Assembly: GCA_002840735.1 (NCBI GenBank)
Contig: PHBY01000028.1
Location: 1-33,720, forward strand
Direction: 5' to 3'
DNA from: Chloroflexi bacterium HGW-Chloroflexi-2
Lineage (GTDB): Bacteria; Chloroflexota; Anaerolineae; Anaerolineales; Anaerolineaceae
DNA length: 33,720 bases
Below are positions 3,262 through 16,892 of the stretch, piece by piece. The position numbers were made by a program, and so were the translations under genes. Each line of letters starts with the position of its first letter. The stretch's first letter is position 1. The notes under the pieces are model-generated. The model searched no databases. It saw only the letters and a list, made by a program, of their open reading frames with translations, and was not told where the DNA came from.

Positions 3262-5496
3262 TTATAAAACTGTTCTCCGTAGCAATTGTGCATTAATGGC
3301 GACGATCACTGTGCTGAGTGACATTAATACCGCACCGACTGCTGGTGAGAGTAAAATTCCAATTGGTGCCAGCACTCCAGCTGCTAAGGGGAGCGCGACA
3401 ATGTTATATCCTGCAGCCCAAACAAGGTTTTGGATCATTTTGCGGTAGCTGGCACTACTCAAGCTGAAAATCTTAACCACGTCCAATGGATTGCTTTTGA
3501 CCAGGATAATTCCTGCTGATTCAATTGCAACATCGGTGCCGCTCCCAATCGCAATGCCTACATCCGCCCTGGTCAAGGCAGGGGCATCATTTACGCCATC
3601 ACCAACCATAGCAACCAGCTTACCCTGTTTTTGTAGTTCCATTACCTTTTGGTCTTTGTGTTCGGGTAAAACCTCAGCAAAATAGGTTTCAATACCTAGC
3701 TCGTCCGCTACAGCTTTGGCGACTGCCTGACTATCACCGGTAAGCATGGCGACTTCTATTCCCATTTTTCTCAGCTTTTCGATCGCCAACTTGCTCTCTG
3801 GGCGTACAACATCTGCTAGTGCAAAGGCTGCAATAACCTCGCCTCCATTTTGACCATCCTGAATCAAGTTAATTACACTCTGCCCTCTTGTACTGGCTAA
3901 TTGCTCGAATTTGAGTAGTTTGTCCGGCAACTCAATTTTTAGCATCTCCAATAAACGCGGACCGCCGATATATACTGAGTAACCTTTACTTTTAGCCCGC
4001 ACACCACGTCCTTGAATGGCTTCAAAGTCAGAGATCTCAGGCAAGGATAATTTACGATCTTCTGCTGATTTTCGAATGCCACGGGCGATCGTATGCTCTG
4101 AGTCACCTTCGATGGCGGCTGCCAAGGCAAGGGCTTCGTCTTCGGTCCAACTTTCGATCGTCTCCATGGCAACCACGCCAAATTTACCTTCGGTCAATGT
4201 TCCTGTTTTGTCGAAGATAATCATGTTGATCAGACGCGCTTTCTCCAGCGCCAGACGATCACGAATAAGAATACCGTTTTTTGCACCTTTTGCGGTTGTT
4301 ATAGCTACAACAAGTGGGACTGCCAGACCAAGTGCGTGTGGGCAGGCAATTACAAGCACCGTTGCAACGCGTGCAATGACTTCGACGTTAAATCCCACCG
4401 CGATGGTCCATGCGATGGCTGTAATCGCTGCTACACCTAATGCAACGTAAAACAACCAGCCTGCAGCTTTATCTGCCAGGATCTGTGTGCTGGACTTGCT
4501 TTGTTGAGCCTGTTCCACCAGACGCATGATTCCAGCCAACGCTGTCTGGTCTCCCGTAGCAGTGACCTTCACGCGTAAACTACCATCGCTGTTAATGGTA
4601 CCTGCAATCACTTTTGCACCTGGCTGTTTTTTCACAGGAATCGATTCGCCTGTAATCATCGATTCATTAACCTTCGATTCTCCTTCCTGAACTTCACCAT
4701 CTGCCGGGATGCTGCCACCTGGCCGAACCAATAGGAGATCTCCGCTTTGAAGTTTGTCCAATGAGACAGTCTCAATGCTGCCATCCGAATTGATTCGGTC
4801 AGCTGTATCAGGCATCAACTTGGATAACTCTTTCAATGCTCCTGAAGCTTGTCTCACACTTCTCATTTCGATCCAATGTCCTAGCAGCATGATGTCAATC
4901 AACGTGACCAATTCCCAGAAGAAAGTCATACTGGCAGGCATGATCAAAGCTGCCAGACTGTAAATAAGTGCTACCGATATTGCCAGTGAAATCAGAGTCA
5001 TCATTCCTGGTTTACGATTCTGCAACTCAGGGATCGCCATCTGTAAAAAGGGAACACCGCCATAGATAAAGACAATGACAGCAAATGTCGGGGTGATCCA
5101 TTGACTGCCGGGGAAAACCGGCAGACTAAAATTTAACCACTGCTGAATCGATGGACTGAATAAAAGTACCGGAATTGAGAGCACCAACGACGTCCAGAAC
5201 TTTTTCCGAAACATTTGCTCATGACCGCTATGGTCTGTATGCGTCTTGCCATGGTCGCCTTGACCATTATTTCCACCATGACCTGTGTGCTCAGAAGGGG
5301 TTGTAATTGAACCTTGACGCTTGCTGTGATCCATAGTGTTGTGATTTTCGTGTTGATCTTTTTGGGTAGTATGTTCCTGATGAAGTTTAGAAGTATGCTT
5401 TCCTGATTCATCTATTGAGTGATGATTGTGTTTCATAGAATCCCCGTTTTCCTTTGCACTTTGTACCGTTTTTTTATTCATTTCTTCTCCATTCAT
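3262..5496 (-). CDS. copB: copper-translocating P1B-type ATPase (CopB-like, CPH type)
   Basis: Heavy-metal exporter of the inner membrane. A His-rich N-terminus carries about 15 His in the first 92 residues in place of CxxC metal-binding domains. Then come the membrane helices, actuator TGES at 282-285, the CPH transport motif at 385-387, DKTGTLT with phosphorylated Asp429, and [10 protein letters not shown]-terminal segment with [17 protein letters not shown] follows. CPH plus a His-rich N-terminus indicates the CopB (P1B-3) group, proposed to export Cu(II)/Cu(I). It is the last gene of the YHS to copB operon. An alternative start at 5481 (MNKK) has the better Shine-Dalgarno, GGAG eight bases upstream. 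No regulator gene is adjacent. Confidence 0.93.
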
Positions 5497-5646: not shown

Positions 5647-6456
5647 TCAATTCTTTTCACTTAAAACTTCAGCAGATGATAAGTGTAACAAACGATCTTT
5701 TTCATGAACTAACCATTCCTGTGATTGAATCTTATATTGAACAATCTCAGCTGAATTTGAAAAAGCTTCATCAATGTACGGGAAGCCAAACCAGACAATC
5801 CCCAATCCAAATAATAGTCCGGAGACCAAACGCATCCAGGCGTTGAACGACCCCCAGGCATCACCTGCATAGAAATTTGGATCCAATAAGTTGTTGGTTA
5901 TGGAGACTAACCAGGTATTCGTGTCACGAAATCCCTGACCAATTCCAGACAAATCGCTGATGAAATGAGTTGTTCCATCAAAAGCCATTGGCAAAAGCAG
6001 AAGAACAAATCCCCATATTGGCAACCGTTTTAAATTATTCTTCATCAATCCCCAAACAATTCCGAACAACCAGATACTGGTATACATCGAAACCATTCGG
6101 TCAGACCAGGCAACTTTCCAACCCATCTGTGGGTTTCCCGCGAATTGACGGAGATTGACAATATTATTCGTGTTTTCCCACACAGCCTGAATCTCTGAGA
6201 GGGAGTAAGAAATCTTTGGACCAAACAGGAAATAAGAGCGTTGTGGTAATTGGTGACATAAGATTGAGTATATCCAATAAATGACATTCCCTGGGGTGTC
6301 CCATCCAACTGCCATAAAAACTGGGGCAAGAAAGGGTGTCAAAACAAATCCTCCAAAAAGGACACCGAAGACTAAAATCCAATGTTGGTTAAACCAAAGG
6401 ACAAAACGATCTGTTTTATTCATTGAATTCGAAGTCATTCTATTGGTAGAACCCAT
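5647..6456 (-). CDS. DUF2085 family membrane protein
   Basis: 269 residues with about five membrane helices. The region CHQLPQRSYFLFG, then WSDRMVSMYTSIWLFGIVWGL and LPMAFDGTTHFISD matches the DUF2085 family of unknown function. The conserved Cys-His pair and the DGTTHF motif could bind metal, which is inference. GGAG nine bases before the ATG fits the start. It lies 150 bp upstream of copB and 51 bp downstream of the 119-residue unknown gene on the same strand, so it is probably part of the metal-export operon. Confidence 0.8.
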   Translation of the reverse strand: MGSTNRMTSNSMNKTDRFVLWFNQHWILVFGVLFGGFVLTPFLAPVFMAVGWDTPGNVIYWIYSILCHQLPQRSYFLFGPKISYSLSEIQAVWENTNNIVNLRQFAGNPQMGWKVAWSDRMVSMYTSIWLFGIVWGLMKNNLKRLPIWGFVLLLLPMAFDGTTHFISDLSGIGQGFRDTNTWLVSITNNLLDPNFYAGDAWGSFNAWMRLVSGLLFGLGIVWFGFPYIDEAFSNSAEIVQYKIQSQEWLVHEKDRLLHLSSAEVLSEKN

Positions 6457-8094: not shown

Positions 8095-9846
8095 TTAATT
8101 TAGTTTTGAAGGAGGTTTATTTTTTAACCGAATTAATATGGTCGTGCCTGCTCCGAGGTTGGATTTAATCCTAAAATCAGCTTTTATCAGATCGGATCGT
8201 TCTTTTAATCCCAACAGTCCAAAATGTCCCCTTTTAGGAAATTCAGCTGCATTGGCTGGAACGATGAATCCACATCCATCATCTCTTATCTGTAAAAATA
8301 AATCATTATCAGAAAATTCCAAATCAACCCAGGCATGCTCTGCATTGGCATGCTGGACCACATTATTGAGTGATTCTTGTGCAATTCGATAAAGTGACAT
8401 TTCGCTTTGTGGATCTAAACGACGCTCATTTCCCATCGAGGTAAATGTAATCTGAATATTGGAGGTTTGTTCCAATTCGCGAATCAGCATTTCAAGGGAA
8501 GCAACCAGTCCTAAATCTTCCAGGTAAATTGGTCGTAATCCTCTTATCATGTGGCGAAGGTTGGTTATGGATTGCTGCACCAGCATTTGGAGATCCTTTA
8601 TCGAACTTCGCTGAGTTTCTGAAGCGTCCATCATAATCATTTGGATCTTTTGATTGAGTGCAATTAACGCTTGGATCGTATCATCATGCAACTCACGTGC
8701 AATACTGCGACGTTCATTTTCCACACCAGCAGTAATTGCGCCAATATAACCTCTCAAATTTTGTTGGGCAATTTTGACCTTCTGTGCCATCTCAATCAAT
8801 TCAGTTTGCAGATTACGAATTTCTTCAATTCCTCCTACTGGATTTTGTATGGCATCATAGTCTCCAGAAGCCAAACTGATCGCTTGTTTTTCCAATTTTT
8901 GCAGAGGGGTGACAATACGACGAGCGCCAAACCATAATGCGATTAAAGCCAATAAAAAAACGGGAACCAGAACTAATGGAGCAGATTGTGTGTTGATCAG
9001 GTAGGGGCTGGCAATGTCCTCCCAGGCTTCCTCAATAATTAATCCCCAACCGGTTGGAAAAACTGGACTAAAAGCGACAACATTCTCTTCCTCATCACTC
9101 TGAAAATAATCAATCCCGCTCTCTCCATTAAGTACTTCTTTTATTCCCGGACGAGAAGGATCATTCTGATCAGAATTATACGAGCCACTACGATAAAGCA
9201 CATTATGTTCTCCATTCTGGTTTGCAGGACTAATAACCAAAATAGATAACTCTGCTGAACCGACAAGGCTGCCTATTGTATGCTCAATGATCCTTTCCGG
9301 AGAGAAAGCCCCTACCAAAATATTATTCTGGTCTGTTACGGTACTGATGAAGATGAATACATGATTACCATTCTCTGAGGAAATTGGTGGTGAAAAAACC
9401 GGATGAGAATCAGCCAACTTTAATTCATCGAATGAATCGGGAATTTGCTTAGAAATTGTTTGCCAATCAACCTCTAAAGTGGTTGATTGTATTAATCGAC
9501 CTTCAGACGTGAACAGAGCAATTCCTCCATCAAAAATGGATGAAATCTCCTCAGGGTTTAAGATCAGGGAATTTAAATCGGACTTTTCATTAAGGCTGCG
9601 GGATAATATTTGAATTGTACTGCTCAAATGTGAGAGCTCTTTTCCTAAAGAACTGGATGCGGCAAGAACTGTTCTTAAATCGCGATCACCCACCAGACGA
9701 CGCATGGCTTCATGATGAAGAGATTGGCTACCAAATGCAACAACCAGGAGAAGTGCAGACAATGGAAGCACGGTGATGACGAACAATTGTAAAGTGAACC
9801 CCCTCCAATTTGCTTTTTTCATTGGTGTGGAGTTATCTTTTGTCAA
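8095..9846 (-). CDS. NarL/DegS-type sensor histidine kinase with extracytoplasmic sensor domain
   Basis: 583-residue membrane histidine kinase. Helix about 15-40, a ~250-residue extracytoplasmic domain of Cache-like appearance, helix about 290-310, HAMP linker, then a HisKA_3 dimerisation domain with phospho-acceptor His in RSIARELHDDTIQALI. The ATPase domain has N-box AQESLNNVVQHA and G-box DDGCGF. It should phosphorylate the response regulator encoded 54 bp upstream. The start is TTG at 9846, supported by AAGGTG just before it; ATG at 9822 lacks a ribosome site. Its place directly after the CuA/cytochrome operon suggests that it senses a metal or redox cue, but the ligand cannot be read from sequence. 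Confidence 0.92.
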   Translation of the reverse strand: MTKDNSTPMKKANWRGFTLQLFVITVLPLSALLLVVAFGSQSLHHEAMRRLVGDRDLRTVLAASSSLGKELSHLSSTIQILSRSLNEKSDLNSLILNPEEISSIFDGGIALFTSEGRLIQSTTLEVDWQTISKQIPDSFDELKLADSHPVFSPPISSENGNHVFIFISTVTDQNNILVGAFSPERIIEHTIGSLVGSAELSILVISPANQNGEHNVLYRSGSYNSDQNDPSRPGIKEVLNGESGIDYFQSDEEENVVAFSPVFPTGWGLIIEEAWEDIASPYLINTQSAPLVLVPVFLLALIALWFGARRIVTPLQKLEKQAISLASGDYDAIQNPVGGIEEIRNLQTELIEMAQKVKIAQQNLRGYIGAITAGVENERRSIARELHDDTIQALIALNQKIQMIMMDASETQRSSIKDLQMLVQQSITNLRHMIRGLRPIYLEDLGLVASLEMLIRELEQTSNIQITFTSMGNERRLDPQSEMSLYRIAQESLNNVVQHANAEHAWVDLEFSDNDLFLQIRDDGCGFIVPANAAEFPKRGHFGLLGLKERSDLIKADFRIKSNLGAGTTILIRLKNKPPSKLN

Positions 9847-9900
9847 ATCACACCTTTTTTTTCATCCGAAAAGTGTAGTCTAATTTCATTAAAATGAATT

Positions 9901-10575
9901 TTAAGGAATTTCAGCAATATTTGTAGAAATTAATCCCAAGGAAACTGCACGCATGACTGCCTCGGTACGACTTTCTGCATTCAATTTCTGGAAGATATTT
10001 GCAAGATGATTTTGTACAGTACGGTCACTGATTCCCAACTGCATGCCAATTGCCTTATTCGTAAAGCCTTTTGCGGTCAGGGTTAAGATTTGCAACTCAC
10101 GGTCAGTGAGCGGTTCAATTAATTGTGATTCAGTTTTTCCACCAAGTTTTGCAATCAGTTTTAGGGTGAGTGTAACATCCAGCACGGATTTACCATGAAA
10201 GACATCGCGCACGCCTTCTATAATTTCCTGGGGTTCTGCGGTTTTCAGAACATACCCATTTGATCCGGCTTGCAAAACTGCTTGCACATAGGGCGCATCG
10301 TCATATGCGGTTAGAACTAAGATGCCTATCGATAAATGATTGGAGCGAACCCATCGGGTTACTTCAATACCGCTCATCAACGGCATTTGAATGTCCAGGA
10401 CAGCAACATCAGGTTTGAATTGCTCGATCAGTTCACAAGCTTCTTTTCCATTGGATGCTTCTGCTACAACCTGAATATCAGAGGTTTGTTCAAGGAATTG
10501 ACGAATCCCTGCTCGCACAACGACATGGTCATCAGCGAGAAGAACGCGAATAATCGGGGAATTTTGTGAGGCCAT
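9901..10575 (-). CDS. NarL/FixJ-family response regulator
   Basis: 224 residues: a receiver domain with acidic pair Asp15/Asp16, phospho-acceptor Asp61 (VAVLDIQMP), Thr89 and Lys111, then a LuxR-type helix-turn-helix from about 155 to 215 (LTDRELQILTLTAKGFTNKAIG). Partner of the histidine kinase downstream. Targets are unknown; the adjacent CuA/polyferredoxin operon is the obvious candidate. There is no Shine-Dalgarno before the ATG, but TATAAT ends six bases upstream, so the transcript may be leaderless. It lies 39 bp after the CuA-cytochrome gene and could also be read from that operon. Confidence 0.94.
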   Translation of the reverse strand: MASQNSPIIRVLLADDHVVVRAGIRQFLEQTSDIQVVAEASNGKEACELIEQFKPDVAVLDIQMPLMSGIEVTRWVRSNHLSIGILVLTAYDDAPYVQAVLQAGSNGYVLKTAEPQEIIEGVRDVFHGKSVLDVTLTLKLIAKLGGKTESQLIEPLTDRELQILTLTAKGFTNKAIGMQLGISDRTVQNHLANIFQKLNAESRTEAVMRAVSLGLISTNIAEIP

Positions 10576-10581
10576 GATTGA

Positions 10582-10587
10582 ATTATA
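10582..10587 (-). promoter_or_regulatory. -10 box TATAAT, 6 nt before the response regulator start
   Basis: Minus-strand TATAAT followed by six bases and the ATG at 10575, the same arrangement as before the mutS-like gene. No Shine-Dalgarno and no good -35 are visible. This predicts a leaderless transcript that separates the two-component genes from the upstream electron-transfer operon. Confidence 0.5.
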
Positions 10588-10614
10588 CCCGCTAAAAAAG
10601 TGTTTATTCCAGCT

Positions 10615-11649
10615 TTAATCCAGGTTTTCGTTAGGTGTGAATCCCCAGGCAAAATTGAATAGATAACTTACCAGATTTTCAATTTGCTGAGATGTGAAAA
10701 TTGGACCCCAATATGGCATGCCAGTGCCCATTCCACCCCGGATGATTTTTCCTTCAAGCAATGCTGGACTGGTTCCTAATAGGTTCTTGGGATCGCTGGA
10801 ATCCCGCGGCCTCACGAAACCCTCTCCGGTAAATGAACCGGATGATTTATCCATATTATGGTTGCCTGGATCCCAAACAGGATTATTTCGCACCATAACA
10901 CCATCCCCTTTACCGGTCTCTCCGTGACAGGCAGCACAATTTTCTGCATAGAGTCTTTGACCATTTTCTAAATTTTCAGGCGTTGTCTGTCTTTGCCAGA
11001 TCCATGCAACCGCATCCCAAATATCCTGGTCGCTCAAGCTGAACAAAGCTGATTCTGCTCGTAACCGCATCCATAGAACTGCTGGACTGGTTGAGAGGTA
11101 GGTGGTGCGGTCGATTGCATAGGTGGGGAGAAGACTTGCAAAGTTCGCGCCTCGTTCTGCTGAGACTTGCTCAGTTGGAACAGTTTCAACAATCGGTGGT
11201 GAGTCAATATCGATGTCGAGAGTAACAAATAATGGTTGTGGTTCGGGTTGCAGAGGCCGTCCTTCTCCTGATACATCAATAGTTCCACGCATACGCCAAT
11301 GATTCGGTCCACACCATCGTGTGCAATAAAAAGTATATTGTCCTGGTTGGTCAAAAACGAACGTAGTTTCAACGAATTCTCCGGGATAAATATCCACCCC
11401 AGGTAAATCTGATTTTCCGATAGCAATTCCATGAACCACATCGTCACTCGTCATACGCAGATGAATTGGTTCGTCGACCACTGCATCGATCCGCTCAATA
11501 CTCCATCCGCCATTTTCCGGCATCCGGGCGTGGAGTTCTATGGTATTGATCCTGTTTCTGGAGAACAACCATTGTCCTGCAAAAGGAATCGCCACAGCAA
11601 TCAAAATAAACAGGATCACTAGAATACGTGCTAAAAATTCTTTTTTCAT
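10615..11649 (-). CDS. CuA cupredoxin - cytochrome c fusion protein
   Basis: Counting from the ATG at 11649 (344 aa): membrane anchor about 7-28, then a cytochrome-oxidase-subunit-II-like cupredoxin domain with all CuA ligands, His73 (DVVHG) and CTRWCGPNHWRM giving Cys109, Cys113, His117 and Met120. A long linker leads to a class I cytochrome c domain with CAACH at 238-242 and a likely axial Met311 in GTGMPYW. It should carry electrons on the outer face of the membrane. Unlike caa3 oxidase subunit II it has one membrane anchor, and no oxidase subunit I gene is nearby. An in-frame TTG at 11661 is an alternative start. It is the last gene of its operon, 4 bp after the polyferredoxin stop. Confidence 0.9.
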   Translation of the reverse strand: MKKEFLARILVILFILIAVAIPFAGQWLFSRNRINTIELHARMPENGGWSIERIDAVVDEPIHLRMTSDDVVHGIAIGKSDLPGVDIYPGEFVETTFVFDQPGQYTFYCTRWCGPNHWRMRGTIDVSGEGRPLQPEPQPLFVTLDIDIDSPPIVETVPTEQVSAERGANFASLLPTYAIDRTTYLSTSPAVLWMRLRAESALFSLSDQDIWDAVAWIWQRQTTPENLENGQRLYAENCAACHGETGKGDGVMVRNNPVWDPGNHNMDKSSGSFTGEGFVRPRDSSDPKNLLGTSPALLEGKIIRGGMGTGMPYWGPIFTSQQIENLVSYLFNFAWGFTPNENLD

Positions 11650-11653
11650 AAGC

Positions 11654-12979
11654 TTAACCAATCAAGAGCCAAAGCATGCTGAAGGAAAATATTCCACTAA
11701 AAGTAACCAGTGGTAGCGCCTGACGGTGAGTCCCACTTACTCTGAGTGCAACGCGACTGCTCCATGCCAGGCCAACCGCAAGCATTACAACTTGCAATAG
11801 CAAGCTAATAGACGTAGACTGTCCTACCCAGGCAGAATTTGAATACCCTATCAAATTCCAACCCCACCCAAGTGGGTCAGATATCACCGGTAGCACATAA
11901 GAGAATTTGGCAAAAGCGAAAGAGATGGTAAATGCAATCCATGCCATTAACCCCAGTGGGACTAGCACCTGGCTATATTTTGCCAATGACTTTCTCAGAG
12001 TAGTTCTAGATGAGCCCATTAACATCGATAACTTCACAGCCCCCGCATAAAGACCTGGCAGTATGACTAAGGCTGCAAAGAGAAAAACCCCTGCAAAAAT
12101 GAACCAGGGAGTGCTACCGATCGCATAAGCTGCAGATTTGATCTGCCCCCAAGGTCCTAGAAAAACCGCTGAATCGACCAATACACTAGCCAACATTATT
12201 AAACCCAGAAAAGCTTCGTCCAAACGATGTTTCGTTTTTGGTCCCAAGTCACTTCCCCATGGACGCAGGTTTACAGCGATGTTGTCACTCGGACAGACGC
12301 GTAAGCACTCCATACATAGGCCACAATTCGCACTGGATTTTAATGCCAAAGGGAACTGTCCCCATGGGCAAGCGGTATAACAGGTCTTTTCAGCGTGGCT
12401 GGCGCAAACTTCAGCATCTTTGACACGCACCTCCACTGGCCCAGCTTGCGCATATAGCCCCGTGAAACCACCAATTGGACAAAGGTAATTGCAGAAGGAG
12501 CGCCGTTCGAATACCAGGCTTAACACGAAAGCAAGAACAATGATAAATAAAAGAACAAAGGCTGTTACACTGGCAGAAGTCAGTGTTAGCGCTCCAAACA
12601 ATCCGATGAGTAGAAATCCACCAGCCTGCAACCAGGAACCGCGCAGCGCTTTAGGCCACCTCTTGTTTAACCCGAAACCTTTACCGCGAGGCATTAATAT
12701 CCCGCCATTCTGAAGCCATTCTCCAGGCATAGGGATCGGACAAATGGAACACCAGGAACGCCCACCAAAGGGGATGAAAAATAACTTCAAGGCTGTCCAC
12801 CATGCGATCCACACAAAAATAATCGCAAAATTATGACTACCAACTACTGAACCAAACAACCCGGTTAAAATAGTAAAAACAAACCCTGCCAATGTCACAG
12901 CTCGCAACAAAAATTGTGGCCAACGGTTACGCAAAATTGAGAGTGCCCATGGGTAACGGGTCAAATCCAGTCGCACCAT
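11654..12979 (-). CDS. membrane polyferredoxin (NapH/CcoG-like 4Fe-4S protein)
   Basis: 441 residues from the ATG at 12979, chosen because it overlaps the upstream stop as TGATG; a longer reading frame to 13141 would run into that gene. Multiple membrane helices carry two conserved Cys pairs, CSICP (77, 80) and CNYLCP (163, 167). Then comes a ferredoxin-like domain with Cys192, Cys200, Cys204 and the complete CxxCxxCxxxCP at 219-229, followed by four or more helices. NapH, NosR and CcoG relatives move electrons across or along the membrane from quinol or reduce copper. With CuA proteins on both sides, a role in membrane electron transfer or copper-site reduction is likely; the substrate is unknown. 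Confidence 0.88.
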   Translation of the reverse strand: MVRLDLTRYPWALSILRNRWPQFLLRAVTLAGFVFTILTGLFGSVVGSHNFAIIFVWIAWWTALKLFFIPFGGRSWCSICPIPMPGEWLQNGGILMPRGKGFGLNKRWPKALRGSWLQAGGFLLIGLFGALTLTSASVTAFVLLFIIVLAFVLSLVFERRSFCNYLCPIGGFTGLYAQAGPVEVRVKDAEVCASHAEKTCYTACPWGQFPLALKSSANCGLCMECLRVCPSDNIAVNLRPWGSDLGPKTKHRLDEAFLGLIMLASVLVDSAVFLGPWGQIKSAAYAIGSTPWFIFAGVFLFAALVILPGLYAGAVKLSMLMGSSRTTLRKSLAKYSQVLVPLGLMAWIAFTISFAFAKFSYVLPVISDPLGWGWNLIGYSNSAWVGQSTSISLLLQVVMLAVGLAWSSRVALRVSGTHRQALPLVTFSGIFSFSMLWLLIG

Positions 12980-13482
12980 CAGGCCAACCTTGTCTGAAGT
13001 TGGGGGATTTGCCTCACCGAATAGAACGCTGTCACGATGGATAATATTAATAAAGCAATACCGCGTATGATTAATTGATTTGGTCCGATCTGAAGTTTTC
13101 CAATCATGAAGGGGTGTAAATTGCCACAGGCAACAGAACATCGAAAACGGAATACACCGGCTTTATCTGCGACAAAAGTTGCTGAAACAGTTTGACCAGG
13201 ATCAGCCTTTAATTCAAAATCATATCCATCCAGTGATAAACCATGTACAACATCCATCGAAACCAACTCTACTGTTACCTCGTCATTTGGATTAATATGA
13301 ATTTGACCAGGCGTGAATTGAAAGCTGGATGCTTCAATGCGGATAAGCCGTTTCTGTGGCGTTCTGGAAGACTGTGGAAGTGGAGCAATGAGGATAAGTA
13401 ATCCAGACAACACAAACACGAAGAGCCAAATCCATTGAAGAAAAAATGTAATGAGATTAGAAATGGGTAAAGGAAGTTTCAT
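12979..13482 (-). CDS. membrane-bound CuA-type cupredoxin
   Basis: 167 residues: N-terminal helix about 12-33, a cupredoxin domain about 45-135 and a C-terminal helix about 138-156. CuA ligands are complete: His80 (DVVHG), Cys115, Cys119, His123 and Met126 in CSVACGNLHPFM. It resembles cytochrome c oxidase subunit II but is anchored at both ends and is short. It starts six bases after the PCYCGC gene stop without its own Shine-Dalgarno and overlaps the next gene by one base, so translation is probably coupled. No subunit I is in the window, so it probably belongs to a non-oxidase electron-transfer unit. Confidence 0.9.
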   Translation of the reverse strand: MKLPLPISNLITFFLQWIWLFVFVLSGLLILIAPLPQSSRTPQKRLIRIEASSFQFTPGQIHINPNDEVTVELVSMDVVHGLSLDGYDFELKADPGQTVSATFVADKAGVFRFRCSVACGNLHPFMIGKLQIGPNQLIIRGIALLILSIVTAFYSVRQIPQLQTRLA

Positions 13483-13488
13483 TTTATA

Positions 13489-13968
13489 TTATTGGATAGG
13501 CTGCATGTTCGACGTACCATATTGCGAATATGTCAGGTCAATGGTCTCCCGGATTTTCTCGGGCGCTTTCCCGTCCGTTGTCATTTTAATCACATCCTGG
13601 GCAATATCAACACAAATCGAACAGCCAAGGGAGTGGTAGTCGAAGATAATCTCCCCCGAAGATTTTATTTCTTTCACGTAGCAGGAATAATTCGAAGTAT
13701 GCCCGACCTTGCCACAACCACAATAACAGGGAACATTTTTTAGCGCATCAGGATTAGCAACCGCAAATTGATAGGAAACTTGAACAGTTACAGGTGCATT
13801 TTGTACCTCTTCTGGCATATCAGACATGGGAGCCATTTTGTCGAGGTCCATGTTGGAAGTGGTTGGATTACCACTACAACCTGCCAGTATAGAACTTATC
13901 GTTAATAAAATGATGAATGGCAACAAAAATTTACTACGAGAAAACAATCTACTTGCATCTATTTTCAT
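13489..13968 (-). CDS. PCYCGC-motif lipoprotein
   Basis: 159 residues. Signal peptide with lipobox LAGC, Cys31 being lipidated. The mature part has PCYCGCGKVGHTSNYSC (Cys81, 83, 85, 96) and LGCSICVDI (Cys116, 119), the hallmark of PCYCGC-motif proteins, thought to bind metal, possibly copper, outside the cell. First gene of the operon with the CuA cupredoxin, polyferredoxin and CuA-cytochrome. AAAGGA seven bases before the ATG supports the start. A role in loading copper into the CuA sites encoded next to it is a reasonable inference. Candidate operators lie upstream at 14014-14101. Confidence 0.9.
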   Translation of the reverse strand: MKIDASRLFSRSKFLLPFIILLTISSILAGCSGNPTTSNMDLDKMAPMSDMPEEVQNAPVTVQVSYQFAVANPDALKNVPCYCGCGKVGHTSNYSCYVKEIKSSGEIIFDYHSLGCSICVDIAQDVIKMTTDGKAPEKIRETIDLTYSQYGTSNMQPIQ

Positions 13969-14239: not shown

Positions 14240-14737
14240 TCAAGGAATCCAATTCGAAAGGATTGTGAGCGTCTTGTTTAGATTATCAGGATCATTGGTA
14301 GAAATATGAAGTCTGAAGTCATGAATCCCTCCCATTTCAATACCATGCATATTAAATTGCATTGATATTAATGTAGTTTCGCCAGGTTGAAGGGTCATCG
14401 AACCGATGACAGGGGTGGGGGGTCAACAACCCTCTTTTACTTCAACATAAGGTACATTAGAAATCCGTAGAGTTTCATCACCAACATTTTTAAGTTCGAA
14501 AGAAACACGAACGGTTTGTCCTAATTTAACATTTCCAAGATCTACCATTTCTTTATCAGTTTTAAGGCTGGGTTTATCGGTAACCTCAGGGGTGAAAGGT
14601 TCGGTTTTTTTCTGGAAAGCGAAAAGTAAAGCAATAATAATAATTGCCAAACCACCAAATATGAATAATAACGGGAATTTTTTCGGATTATTCCGTTTCT
14701 TTTGGTTTCTGATAATCTTCCTTCTAAATTTAGGCAT
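14240..14737 (-). CDS. DUF1573-type protein with in-frame UGA after Cys (candidate selenoprotein)
   Basis: Reading from ATG 14737 (AAAGGA nine bases before) gives a Lys/Arg-rich start, a membrane helix at 22-41 and a DUF1573-like domain, reaching KEGC (Cys104). Codon 105 is UGA at 14423-14425. The same frame then continues for 60 sense codons (PPTPVIGSMTLQPGE, then HDFRLHISTNDP) to a UGA at 14240. This completes the DUF1573 fold and parallels the C-terminus of the DUF1573 protein at 16284-16892. Other genes here use UGA as stop. A perfect 7-bp hairpin lies 12-28 nt after the UGA. Either codon 105 is selenocysteine (Cys-Sec pair) or this is a very recent nonsense mutation. If UGA stops, the product ends at residue 104. 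Confidence 0.6.
14394..14410 (-). promoter_or_regulatory. SECIS-like hairpin downstream of the UGA codon
   Basis: On the minus strand GTCATCG-GTT-CGATGAC forms a perfect 7-bp stem with a 3-nt loop beginning with G. The loop starts 19 nt after the UGA. Bacterial SelB-binding hairpins lie inside the coding sequence shortly after the UGA, with a G at the start of a small apical loop, so geometry and loop fit. Stem stability and SelB recognition were not computed. Confidence 0.5.
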
Positions 14738-15758: not shown

Positions 15759-16291
15759 AAAATCATCGACTCTTTGTTTTCTTCATCGTTATTGTAACGG
15801 TTTTTGGAGTGGCTGCCTGCACCATACAAGATTCAGGAAGTGGTTCCACGATTGAACCATCAATTCAAGTCCAGTCAACGCAAGTTCAATCAACTCAGGT
15901 TCAACCAACTGTCATTGCGAGCCAAGATATTGAACCTACTTTTCACGGAATGAAATCAGATGCACAAGGATTTGTCACAGTGGATATCACGCCAGAAAAA
16001 TTAGTCAATTCTGAAGAAGCCTTGACCTTTGTTGTCGCTTTGAATACCCACTCGATTGACCTGAGCATGGATCTTGCTGAACTTACAGTCCTCACAACGG
16101 ATACAGGAAAATCTGTTCAGGCAACGCTCTGGGATGCTCCACGAGGAGGACATCACGTGGAAGGGATGCTTTCTTTTCCGTCTTCATTTGATGAAACAAG
16201 CGTGTTAAATGGAGCAAAGAATATCACGCTTACTATTAAAGATTTGGATGTTCCGTTACGAAAATTTACATGGCAATTAATTAATGATTAA
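15755..16291 (+). CDS. lipoprotein of unknown function, metal-island operon
   Basis: 178 residues from ATG 15755, chosen because it overlaps the preceding stop as ATGA and has AAGGGA before it; a longer frame from 15371 merely overlaps the CCxHH gene. Signal peptide with lipobox VAAC (Cys about 20), a Gln/Thr/Ser linker with repeated VQST units, then a beta-rich domain with THSIDL, WDAPRGGHHVEG and TLTIKDLDVPLRKFTW. The two adjacent His and the acidic surroundings could bind metal. I do not recognise the family. It overlaps the DUF1573 gene by eight bases, so all three are translated together. Confidence 0.75.
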   Translation: MKNHRLFVFFIVIVTVFGVAACTIQDSGSGSTIEPSIQVQSTQVQSTQVQPTVIASQDIEPTFHGMKSDAQGFVTVDITPEKLVNSEEALTFVVALNTHSIDLSMDLAELTVLTTDTGKSVQATLWDAPRGGHHVEGMLSFPSSFDETSVLNGAKNITLTIKDLDVPLRKFTWQLIND

Positions 16292-16892
16292 AAAAAATTC
16301 ACTAATCCCGCTTAAAAAGTTATTGAATCACCTTTTTGATTTTTTGCGATCGACAGAAAAAAGGGCATGGGACTATTTAGTTCTGGGCTCAGCAATTTTT
16401 TTGGTTATAGTATTCATTATTTATGGATCAAAAACACAGAGTATTATGAATTCAGAGATTCAATATTCACCTGCAGATGTGGTTTATGGAGAGTCAATAT
16501 ATGCGATTCATAATGTTAATATCATGAATACCCCTCAAAACATTGGCTTGATTTCTAATGAGGCAACAGAAAAACCACAGATTCTCATATCAGAAAAATT
16601 TTACGATTTTGGGGAGGTCAATTCAAATCAAATTTTGAAACGCACATTCATTTTTGCTAATTCAGGCAATTCTCCCCTAACGATCCATCGCGCTTATACC
16701 ACCTGTGGCTGTACTACAGCAATTTTCACCGCCACTGAAATTCCGCCAGGAAAAGTTGTACTAATGACTTTGCAATTTGATACAGGTTATCACGATATGC
16801 AAGGAAAGACTGTCCGTCGTGGGGTGATGATCGAAACCAATGACCCGGATCACCCAGTCCAGGAAATATGGATACAGGCGAAAGTGAGATGA
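16284..16892 (+). CDS. DUF1573 protein with membrane anchor and CGCT motif
   Basis: 202 residues: membrane helix at 31-48, then a DUF1573 domain from about 100 to 202 (FYDFGEVNSNQILKRTFIF, TTCGCTTA with Cys141 and Cys143, PPGKVVLMTLQF, ETNDPDHPVQEI). DUF1573 is an extracytoplasmic immunoglobulin-like fold of unknown function with a conserved Cys pair. The C-terminal half parallels the sequence after the UGA in the gene at 14240-14737, so the two are paralogues facing each other across the intergenic region. Its start lies inside the preceding gene, indicating translational coupling. Confidence 0.85.
   Translation: MIKKNSLIPLKKLLNHLFDFLRSTEKRAWDYLVLGSAIFLVIVFIIYGSKTQSIMNSEIQYSPADVVYGESIYAIHNVNIMNTPQNIGLISNEATEKPQILISEKFYDFGEVNSNQILKRTFIFANSGNSPLTIHRAYTTCGCTTAIFTATEIPPGKVVLMTLQFDTGYHDMQGKTVRRGVMIETNDPDHPVQEIWIQAKVR

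Follow-up and report, generated by a model that had tools for sequence, protein, structure and literature searches.

We report a candidate selenoprotein gene of the DUF1573 type in the window, i.e., the whole 33,720-nucleotide stretch of DNA of Chloroflexi bacterium HGW-Chloroflexi-2 that was analyzed. Judging from comparisons of sequences, we estimate a probability of about 97% that the in-frame UGA at 14425-14423 of this gene is decoded as selenocysteine (Sec). Insertion of Sec at this codon would be aided by the hairpin immediately downstream, together with SelA, SelB, SelC and SelD. The product, hereafter GCUPP from the motif around Sec105, would very probably be a selenoprotein that acts in the envelope in connection with the cluster of partner genes that follows it on the same strand (Table 1).

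Table 1. Features of the window that bear on the GCUPP gene and its surroundings.
Feature	Position	Strand	Remarks
DUF1573-type gene, predicted selenoprotein	14240..14737	-	165 residues, Sec at 105; helix 21-40, beta-sandwich about 58-164
UGA codon, predicted to be read as Sec105	14425-14423	-	directly 3' of Cys104 (TGT 14428-14426)
SECIS-like hairpin	14410-14394	-	7-bp stem GTCATCG/CGATGAC (14410-14404 with 14400-14394), GTT loop 14403-14401
PCYCGC (PF13798) lipoprotein-like protein, partner gene	13489..13968	-	Cys form
Membrane-anchored CuA-domain protein, partner gene	12979..13482	-	CuA motif complete (C-x3-C-x3-H-x2-M)
NapH-like polytopic Fe-S (Fer4_5) protein, partner gene	11654..13141	-	
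CuA domain fused to cytochrome c domain, partner gene	10615..11661	-	
LuxR-type response regulator	9901..10575	-	next in same direction
Histidine kinase (HisKA_3)	8095..9846	-	next in same direction
P1B-type ATPase and adjoining DUF2085 membrane protein	3262-5496 and 5647-6456	-	ATPase with CPH motif and His-rich start
Second DUF1573 gene	16284-16892	+	canonical TTCGCT motif, no UGA; NF041425 67.6 bits, cut-off 100

The reading frame begins with an ATG at 14737 and remains open until the UGA, which is followed by 60 sense codons and a second TGA at 14242-14240. The initial annotation had described a single UGA right after Cys104 as the interruption of this frame, and the 60 further codons as finishing a DUF1573 domain. 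The former can be read directly in the sequence, and the latter is borne out by the PGE, H-D-F and TNDP motifs, all found downstream of the UGA, and by a Pfam match to DUF1573 (PF07610) of 38.7 bits against a cut-off of 26.1 when the UGA is treated as a residue. The structure predicted for the GCUPP protein (a model from 66 sequences, mean pLDDT of 91.5) has an ASH/PapD-like fold, in which an N-terminal helix precedes the beta-sandwich. This single helix, together with the Lys/Arg-rich start, suggests that the protein is anchored in the inner membrane, its domain lying outside. Promoter and terminator scans returned nothing usable.

Cysteine at codon 105 in relatives, which the initial annotation had proposed as a check, was indeed found. 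Among 147 distinct GC-x-P relatives, 131 carry UGA (one each), 16 carry a Cys codon and none carries any other codon, the absence of other residues being biased because Cys at 104 and Sec or Cys at 105 are part of the definition of this set. The set was derived from 192 alignment rows. Leaving out those gapped at the Sec column gave 154 distinct genes, from which seven that were canonical CGC-like DUF1573 genes or unrelated repeats were then excluded. One of the two patterns used in the GTDB contig scan likewise required Cys104 with Sec or Cys at 105. Conversely, the search of 41 related genomes, the class-wide profile search of 396 genomes and the phylum-wide sample made no such demand. The first of these gave 13 strong matches in 10 genomes, the genome of the window included, with exactly one in-frame TGA in all 13; the other strong homologues are 42-95% identical to the GCUPP protein. 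The class-wide search gave matches in 84 of 396 genomes. Of the 90 places listed at E below 1e-20, 82 contain one TGA and eight contain no stop, these eight being Cys forms. Sequences for the comparison were taken from this search except for its weak or short rows and a split copy in one genome (G251). The split copy (G251:C1:4125080-4125534) is a GCUPP gene distributed over two frames, probably a decaying duplicate.

In the phylum-wide sample, 20 of 301 genomes matched at E up to 1e-12, and the match in one of the 20 (G049) is of the canonical CGC type. A regular expression applied to 14 phylum-level loci found GCU in 10 and canonical CGC in one (L265); three (L255, L262, L271) were not recovered by the expression, yet each has one TGA in the phylum-wide search. 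In a distant member (L264, G665:C39), the position of the UGA is unchanged, and approximately 17 residues are inserted after the hairpin region. The GTDB contig scan yielded 85 relatives; the best 80 of the 85 are mostly titled Chloroflexota or its orders, and a few are titled Acidimicrobiia, Actinomycetes, Acidobacteria, Gemmatimonadetes, Pseudomonadota or Clostridiales, titles of metagenome-assembled genomes that may be wrong. The GCUPP subfamily is apparently large and found mainly in Chloroflexota. A quick tree built without the Sec column implies at least 11 changes between the Sec and Cys labels, four of them forced by well-supported branches. Leptolinea sp. HRD-7, a complete named genome, has a relative (L056) that is 62% identical, so that experiments may be practical.

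In bacterial SECIS elements a G is located in the apical loop, and the loop lies about 16-37 nt after the UGA. In the window the stem starts 12 nt and the GTT loop 19 nt after the UGA, which places the loop in this range. The perfect 7-bp stem and GTT loop of the initial annotation stand; the distance of 19 nt that it gave for the stem is that of the loop. Taken alone, the hairpin of the window is weak, with a z-score of -1.74 for 39 nt (14 of 200 shuffles fold as well) and -0.58 for 49 nt (50 of 200), and it appears convincing only by comparison across relatives. Across 130 distinct 60-nt stretches of Sec genes, pairing is found in 97.9% of the cells of the six stem pairs, compared to 86% for shuffled columns (maximum of 88% in 500) and at most 66% for slid partners; in the 16 Cys genes, the value is 41.7%. 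Three of the pairs swap between standard types in the Sec genes (66/54, 68/58 and 71/55). At least five of the six pairs are present in 129 of 131 Sec genes versus one of 16 Cys genes, i.e., the stem is lost in 15 of 16, and the two Sec exceptions (L206 and L215) result from one extra residue before the stem, which shifts the columns. The stem covaries in Sec genes and is lost in Cys forms, in keeping with the SECIS-like character originally claimed for it.

Constraint is also visible at the level of codons. In Sec genes, near-fixed codons of the stem-loop are GGT (112 of 113), TCG (93 of 94), ATC (71 of 71) and GTC (57 of 57); elsewhere in the same genes these codons are used at 19%, 20%, 52% and 32%, respectively. 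One Cys gene (L064) encodes the same residues, IGSM, by other codons, and its stem is absent. Further stem variants occur in the phylum-level relatives. A tree-based paired test of hairpin loss gave agreement in 3.9 of 4 independent Sec/Cys pairs (p = 0.125); with only four independent pairs on well-supported branches, this test cannot reach 0.05. When folding energies were compared to those of synonymous-codon shuffles, the mean z-score was -0.97 for the 131 Sec genes versus -0.37 for the 16 Cys genes (Mann-Whitney p = 0.03), and 28 of 131 Sec genes and two of 16 Cys genes were at 10 or fewer of 200 shuffles. Used alone, folding energy tests the hairpin poorly. The short SECIS and the natural Cys controls make this family a good test case for decoding rules.

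All four genes that were to be sought in the same genome according to the initial annotation, selA, selB, selC and selD, are present: selB scores 349.7 bits, over the cut-off, selA and selD were found, and the tRNA-Sec was found and is also called by ARAGORN. The SelD of this genome (L050, G000:C7:53947-54882) has one in-frame TGA of its own and is thus probably the Sec form of selenophosphate synthetase. In the 41-genome search, ARAGORN called tRNA-Sec in eight of the 10 genomes with a Sec gene. No tRNA-Sec is called in G005, although selA and the UGA gene are present there; a tRNA-Sec-like gene of that genome (L226, G005:C24, about 100264-100351) shows a good match over 76 of 93 bases, beyond which the similarity is lost. 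In G026, tRNA-Ser alone is called and tRNA-Sec is not. As the Rfam tRNA search was limited to 135 scored candidates in each genome, some may have been missed. Among genomes at least 90% complete, selA is over the cut-off in 48 of 52 with a Sec gene; of the others, G026 has a fragment, and G167, G223 and G336 have none. Given that selA is also over the cut-off in 20 of 23 gene-free genomes, as well as in two of five Cys-only genomes, its presence discriminates poorly between the genome classes. The gene-free genomes with selA presumably use other selenoproteins.

If the UGA were read as another residue, or leakily, without selenium, as a result of a code change or read-through, the frame would be open as well, as it is under any sense reading of TGA. 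However, the replacement in relatives is Cys in 16 of 16 cases, the genome encodes the four sel genes, and its SelD has an in-frame TGA, too. Moreover, the terminator of the GCUPP gene itself is TGA, so TGA is not globally reassigned. We regard this explanation as very improbable and reject it. The explanation that the gene is a pseudogene, a sequencing error or an ordinary stop followed by an inactive remnant, for which one could cite the stop inside a recognizable domain, the non-significant fold of the window hairpin alone and the split copy in a relative, has a negligible probability and is rejected because of the column restricted to UGA and Cys in 147 relatives, the protein conserved on both sides of the UGA in 131 distinct genes, the constraint at the RNA level and the one TGA in every strong homologue.

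The decoding of this UGA as Sec being the preferred reading, we compared the GCUPP protein to the selenoproteins that have been catalogued. A DUF1573 selenoprotein with the motif UGC is listed in PMC9312934 and PMC13188914, and the latter (2026) gives 119 prokaryotic selenoprotein families or subfamilies, separated where the position of Sec differs; its Table 1 contains no GCUPP or CUPP motif. Membership of the GCUPP protein in the known DUF1573 selenoprotein model, NF041425, was rejected because the cut-off is missed (29.2 bits versus 100) and the motif differs; there were no matches to this model over the cut-off in any of the 41 related genomes. The GCUPP protein passes none of the NCBIfam models (June 2026). 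In the open-licence literature, we found no description of a GCUPP selenoprotein, an absence that is not proof. We consider it probable that GCUPP is a distinct, apparently uncatalogued selenoprotein subfamily. Gene finders that treat UGA only as a stop would shorten such genes or label them broken. A viral origin was also considered and dropped: the 14 pattern matches from a scan of IMG/VR included no relative.

On the minus strand, the GCUPP gene is followed, after 271 nt, by the genes for the PCYCGC protein, the CuA membrane protein, the NapH-like protein and the CuA-cytochrome c protein, and then by the response regulator and the histidine kinase. The true start of the NapH-like gene is probably near 12979, where its homologues begin. 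The C-x3-C-x3-H-x2-M motif and an upstream His are kept in both CuA proteins. Among solved structures, the closest to them are CuA subunits of cytochrome oxidase and, in the case of one, also of nitrous-oxide reductase. The partner cluster (window 8095-13968, minus strand) resembles an electron-transfer module without a terminal enzyme, and it occurs also with Cys forms. The PCYCGC family (PF13798, OS_HP4/CYCXC) is itself listed as a selenoprotein family with UxxC (PMC13188914); the neighbor in the window, a Cys form, scores 65.7 bits to NF041379, for which the cut-off is 90. No description of the five-gene cluster (PCYCGC, CuA, NapH-like, CuA-cytochrome c, GCUPP) was found in the open-licence literature. 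The proposal of an envelope protein beside copper genes fits this context, with two CuA proteins, a PCYCGC protein and a CPH-type P1B ATPase in the window.

The association extends to other genomes. Where at least 3 kb of sequence flanks the gene on each side (89 distinct genes), the four partner families all lie within 6 kb at 49 of 77 Sec loci and at 10 of 12 Cys loci, a count that is partly circular since the partner profiles were derived from the window and the neighbors in L054-L133. At 19 of the 77 Sec loci, all four partners are missing. Strong matches to the NapH-like protein (E below 1e-100) were found in 10 of the 41 related genomes, nine of which have the Sec gene; in G008 the NapH-like gene is close to one end of a contig that is itself short, and in G027 the Sec gene is present but the NapH-like one is not. 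Across 81 loci, a set that includes near-duplicates, the recurrent neighbors are an E1-E2/P1B ATPase (17), DUF2085 (17), HMA-domain proteins (12) and multicopper oxidases (9); DsbD-type genes are near nine loci and thioredoxin-like genes near eight.

Conservation elsewhere in the protein fits a metal or redox site at Cys104-Sec105: Met130, Met135 and His139 are invariant in all 147 relatives. His131 occurs in 130 of the 147 and Trp163 in all 142 rows that reach it. We infer a membrane-anchored DUF1573 protein with a vicinal Cys104-Sec105 site and its domain facing the envelope. Together with the Met and His residues, the pair would handle either Cu(I) or the thiols of the neighboring CuA centers, and the protein would act as a chaperone or a reductant for a chain that runs from quinol via CuA to cytochrome c. 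With invariant methionines close to a Cys-Sec pair and CuA proteins encoded alongside, either a Cu(I) site or a thiol-selenol reductant that readies CuA would be plausible.

A vicinal Cys-Sec is a classic redox pair. A purely redox function, in which Cys104-Sec105 would be a selenenylsulfide/thiol-selenol pair that reduces disulfides, e.g., in the CuA or PCYCGC proteins, and binds no metal, is consistent with the DsbD-type and thioredoxin-like genes that recur nearby, and the authors of a review expect most uncharacterized selenoproteins to be redox proteins (PMC13188914). However, it leaves the invariance of the two methionines and the histidine unexplained; we consider this function a serious possibility, albeit one with odds clearly below even. 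The Cu(I) site is slightly favored, as these residues would be dispensable in a protein with redox function alone.

A role in metal tolerance, in which the site would capture soft metal ions (copper, silver, mercury) for detoxification and not for enzyme assembly, appears improbable. The recurrent P1B ATPases, HMA-domain proteins and multicopper oxidases are in line with such a role, as is the commonest neighbor at the 19 partner-free Sec loci, a heavy-metal-ATPase-like protein found by eye at seven of them. Nevertheless, the genes most strongly linked to the family encode CuA and Fe-S electron-transfer proteins, and the neighboring ATPases are mixed in motif (CPC with MxxSS in five of 21, CPH in four of 21).

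Tentatively, we favor the copper-loading reading, in which GCUPP would be an envelope copper chaperone for CuA, with a chance that approaches even. The full version of this model, in which Sec is a natural Cu(I) ligand together with Cys104, Met130, Met135 and His139 and the chaperone loads both CuA proteins of a previously undescribed chain from quinol to cytochrome c, is rather doubtful. If the copper role is true, selenium is used here in metal delivery instead of catalysis. Matches to Sco/SenC (E up to 0.001) were found in the genome of the window, in 45 of 52 Sec genomes, in all five Cys-only genomes and in 16 of 23 gene-free genomes. In view of this distribution, the simple interpretation of GCUPP as a substitute for Sco was dropped. 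With Sco present elsewhere in the genome, CuA assembly may not need the GCUPP protein, and any role in this assembly would be dedicated to the cluster or exerted beside Sco. Two weak Sco/SenC-like matches in one genome (G289:C3:156395-156619 and G289:C12:1356-1580; 22.9 bits) have one in-frame TGA each and are perhaps redoxin-like selenoproteins.

Sco and PCu(A)C, the copper chaperones of CuA, supply it with copper or reducing power in the envelope, using Cys or Met/His ligands. The GCUPP protein differs from both in being an ASH/PapD-like domain with a Cys-Sec pair, and Sco is a separate gene here. The best solved match to its fold is 2qsv of Porphyromonas gingivalis in the PDB (Z of 13.6, rmsd of 2.2 over 105 residues, 19% identity in the alignment), which is titled as a protein of unknown function; the 50 fold matches listed are without cupredoxin or PCu(A)C structures, which carries no weight either way. 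Among Sec proteins linked to soft metals, the Sao system, the SO_0444 Cu/Zn transporter and the CopZ-family (2Fe-2S) selenoproteins are comparable by their descriptions, with Sec as a proposed metal ligand or in metal/metalloid handling and some with a CU motif, whereas their domain families are different (PMC13188914). The closest likeness in domain is OS_HP2 (NF041425), also PF07610 and a predicted selenoprotein, in which Sec sits where canonical members have CGC. Its listed motif is UGC, compared to GCUPP here, where no Gly-Cys follows the Sec; Cys104 of the GCUPP protein aligns with the first Cys of the canonical CGC, and Sec105 aligns with its Gly.
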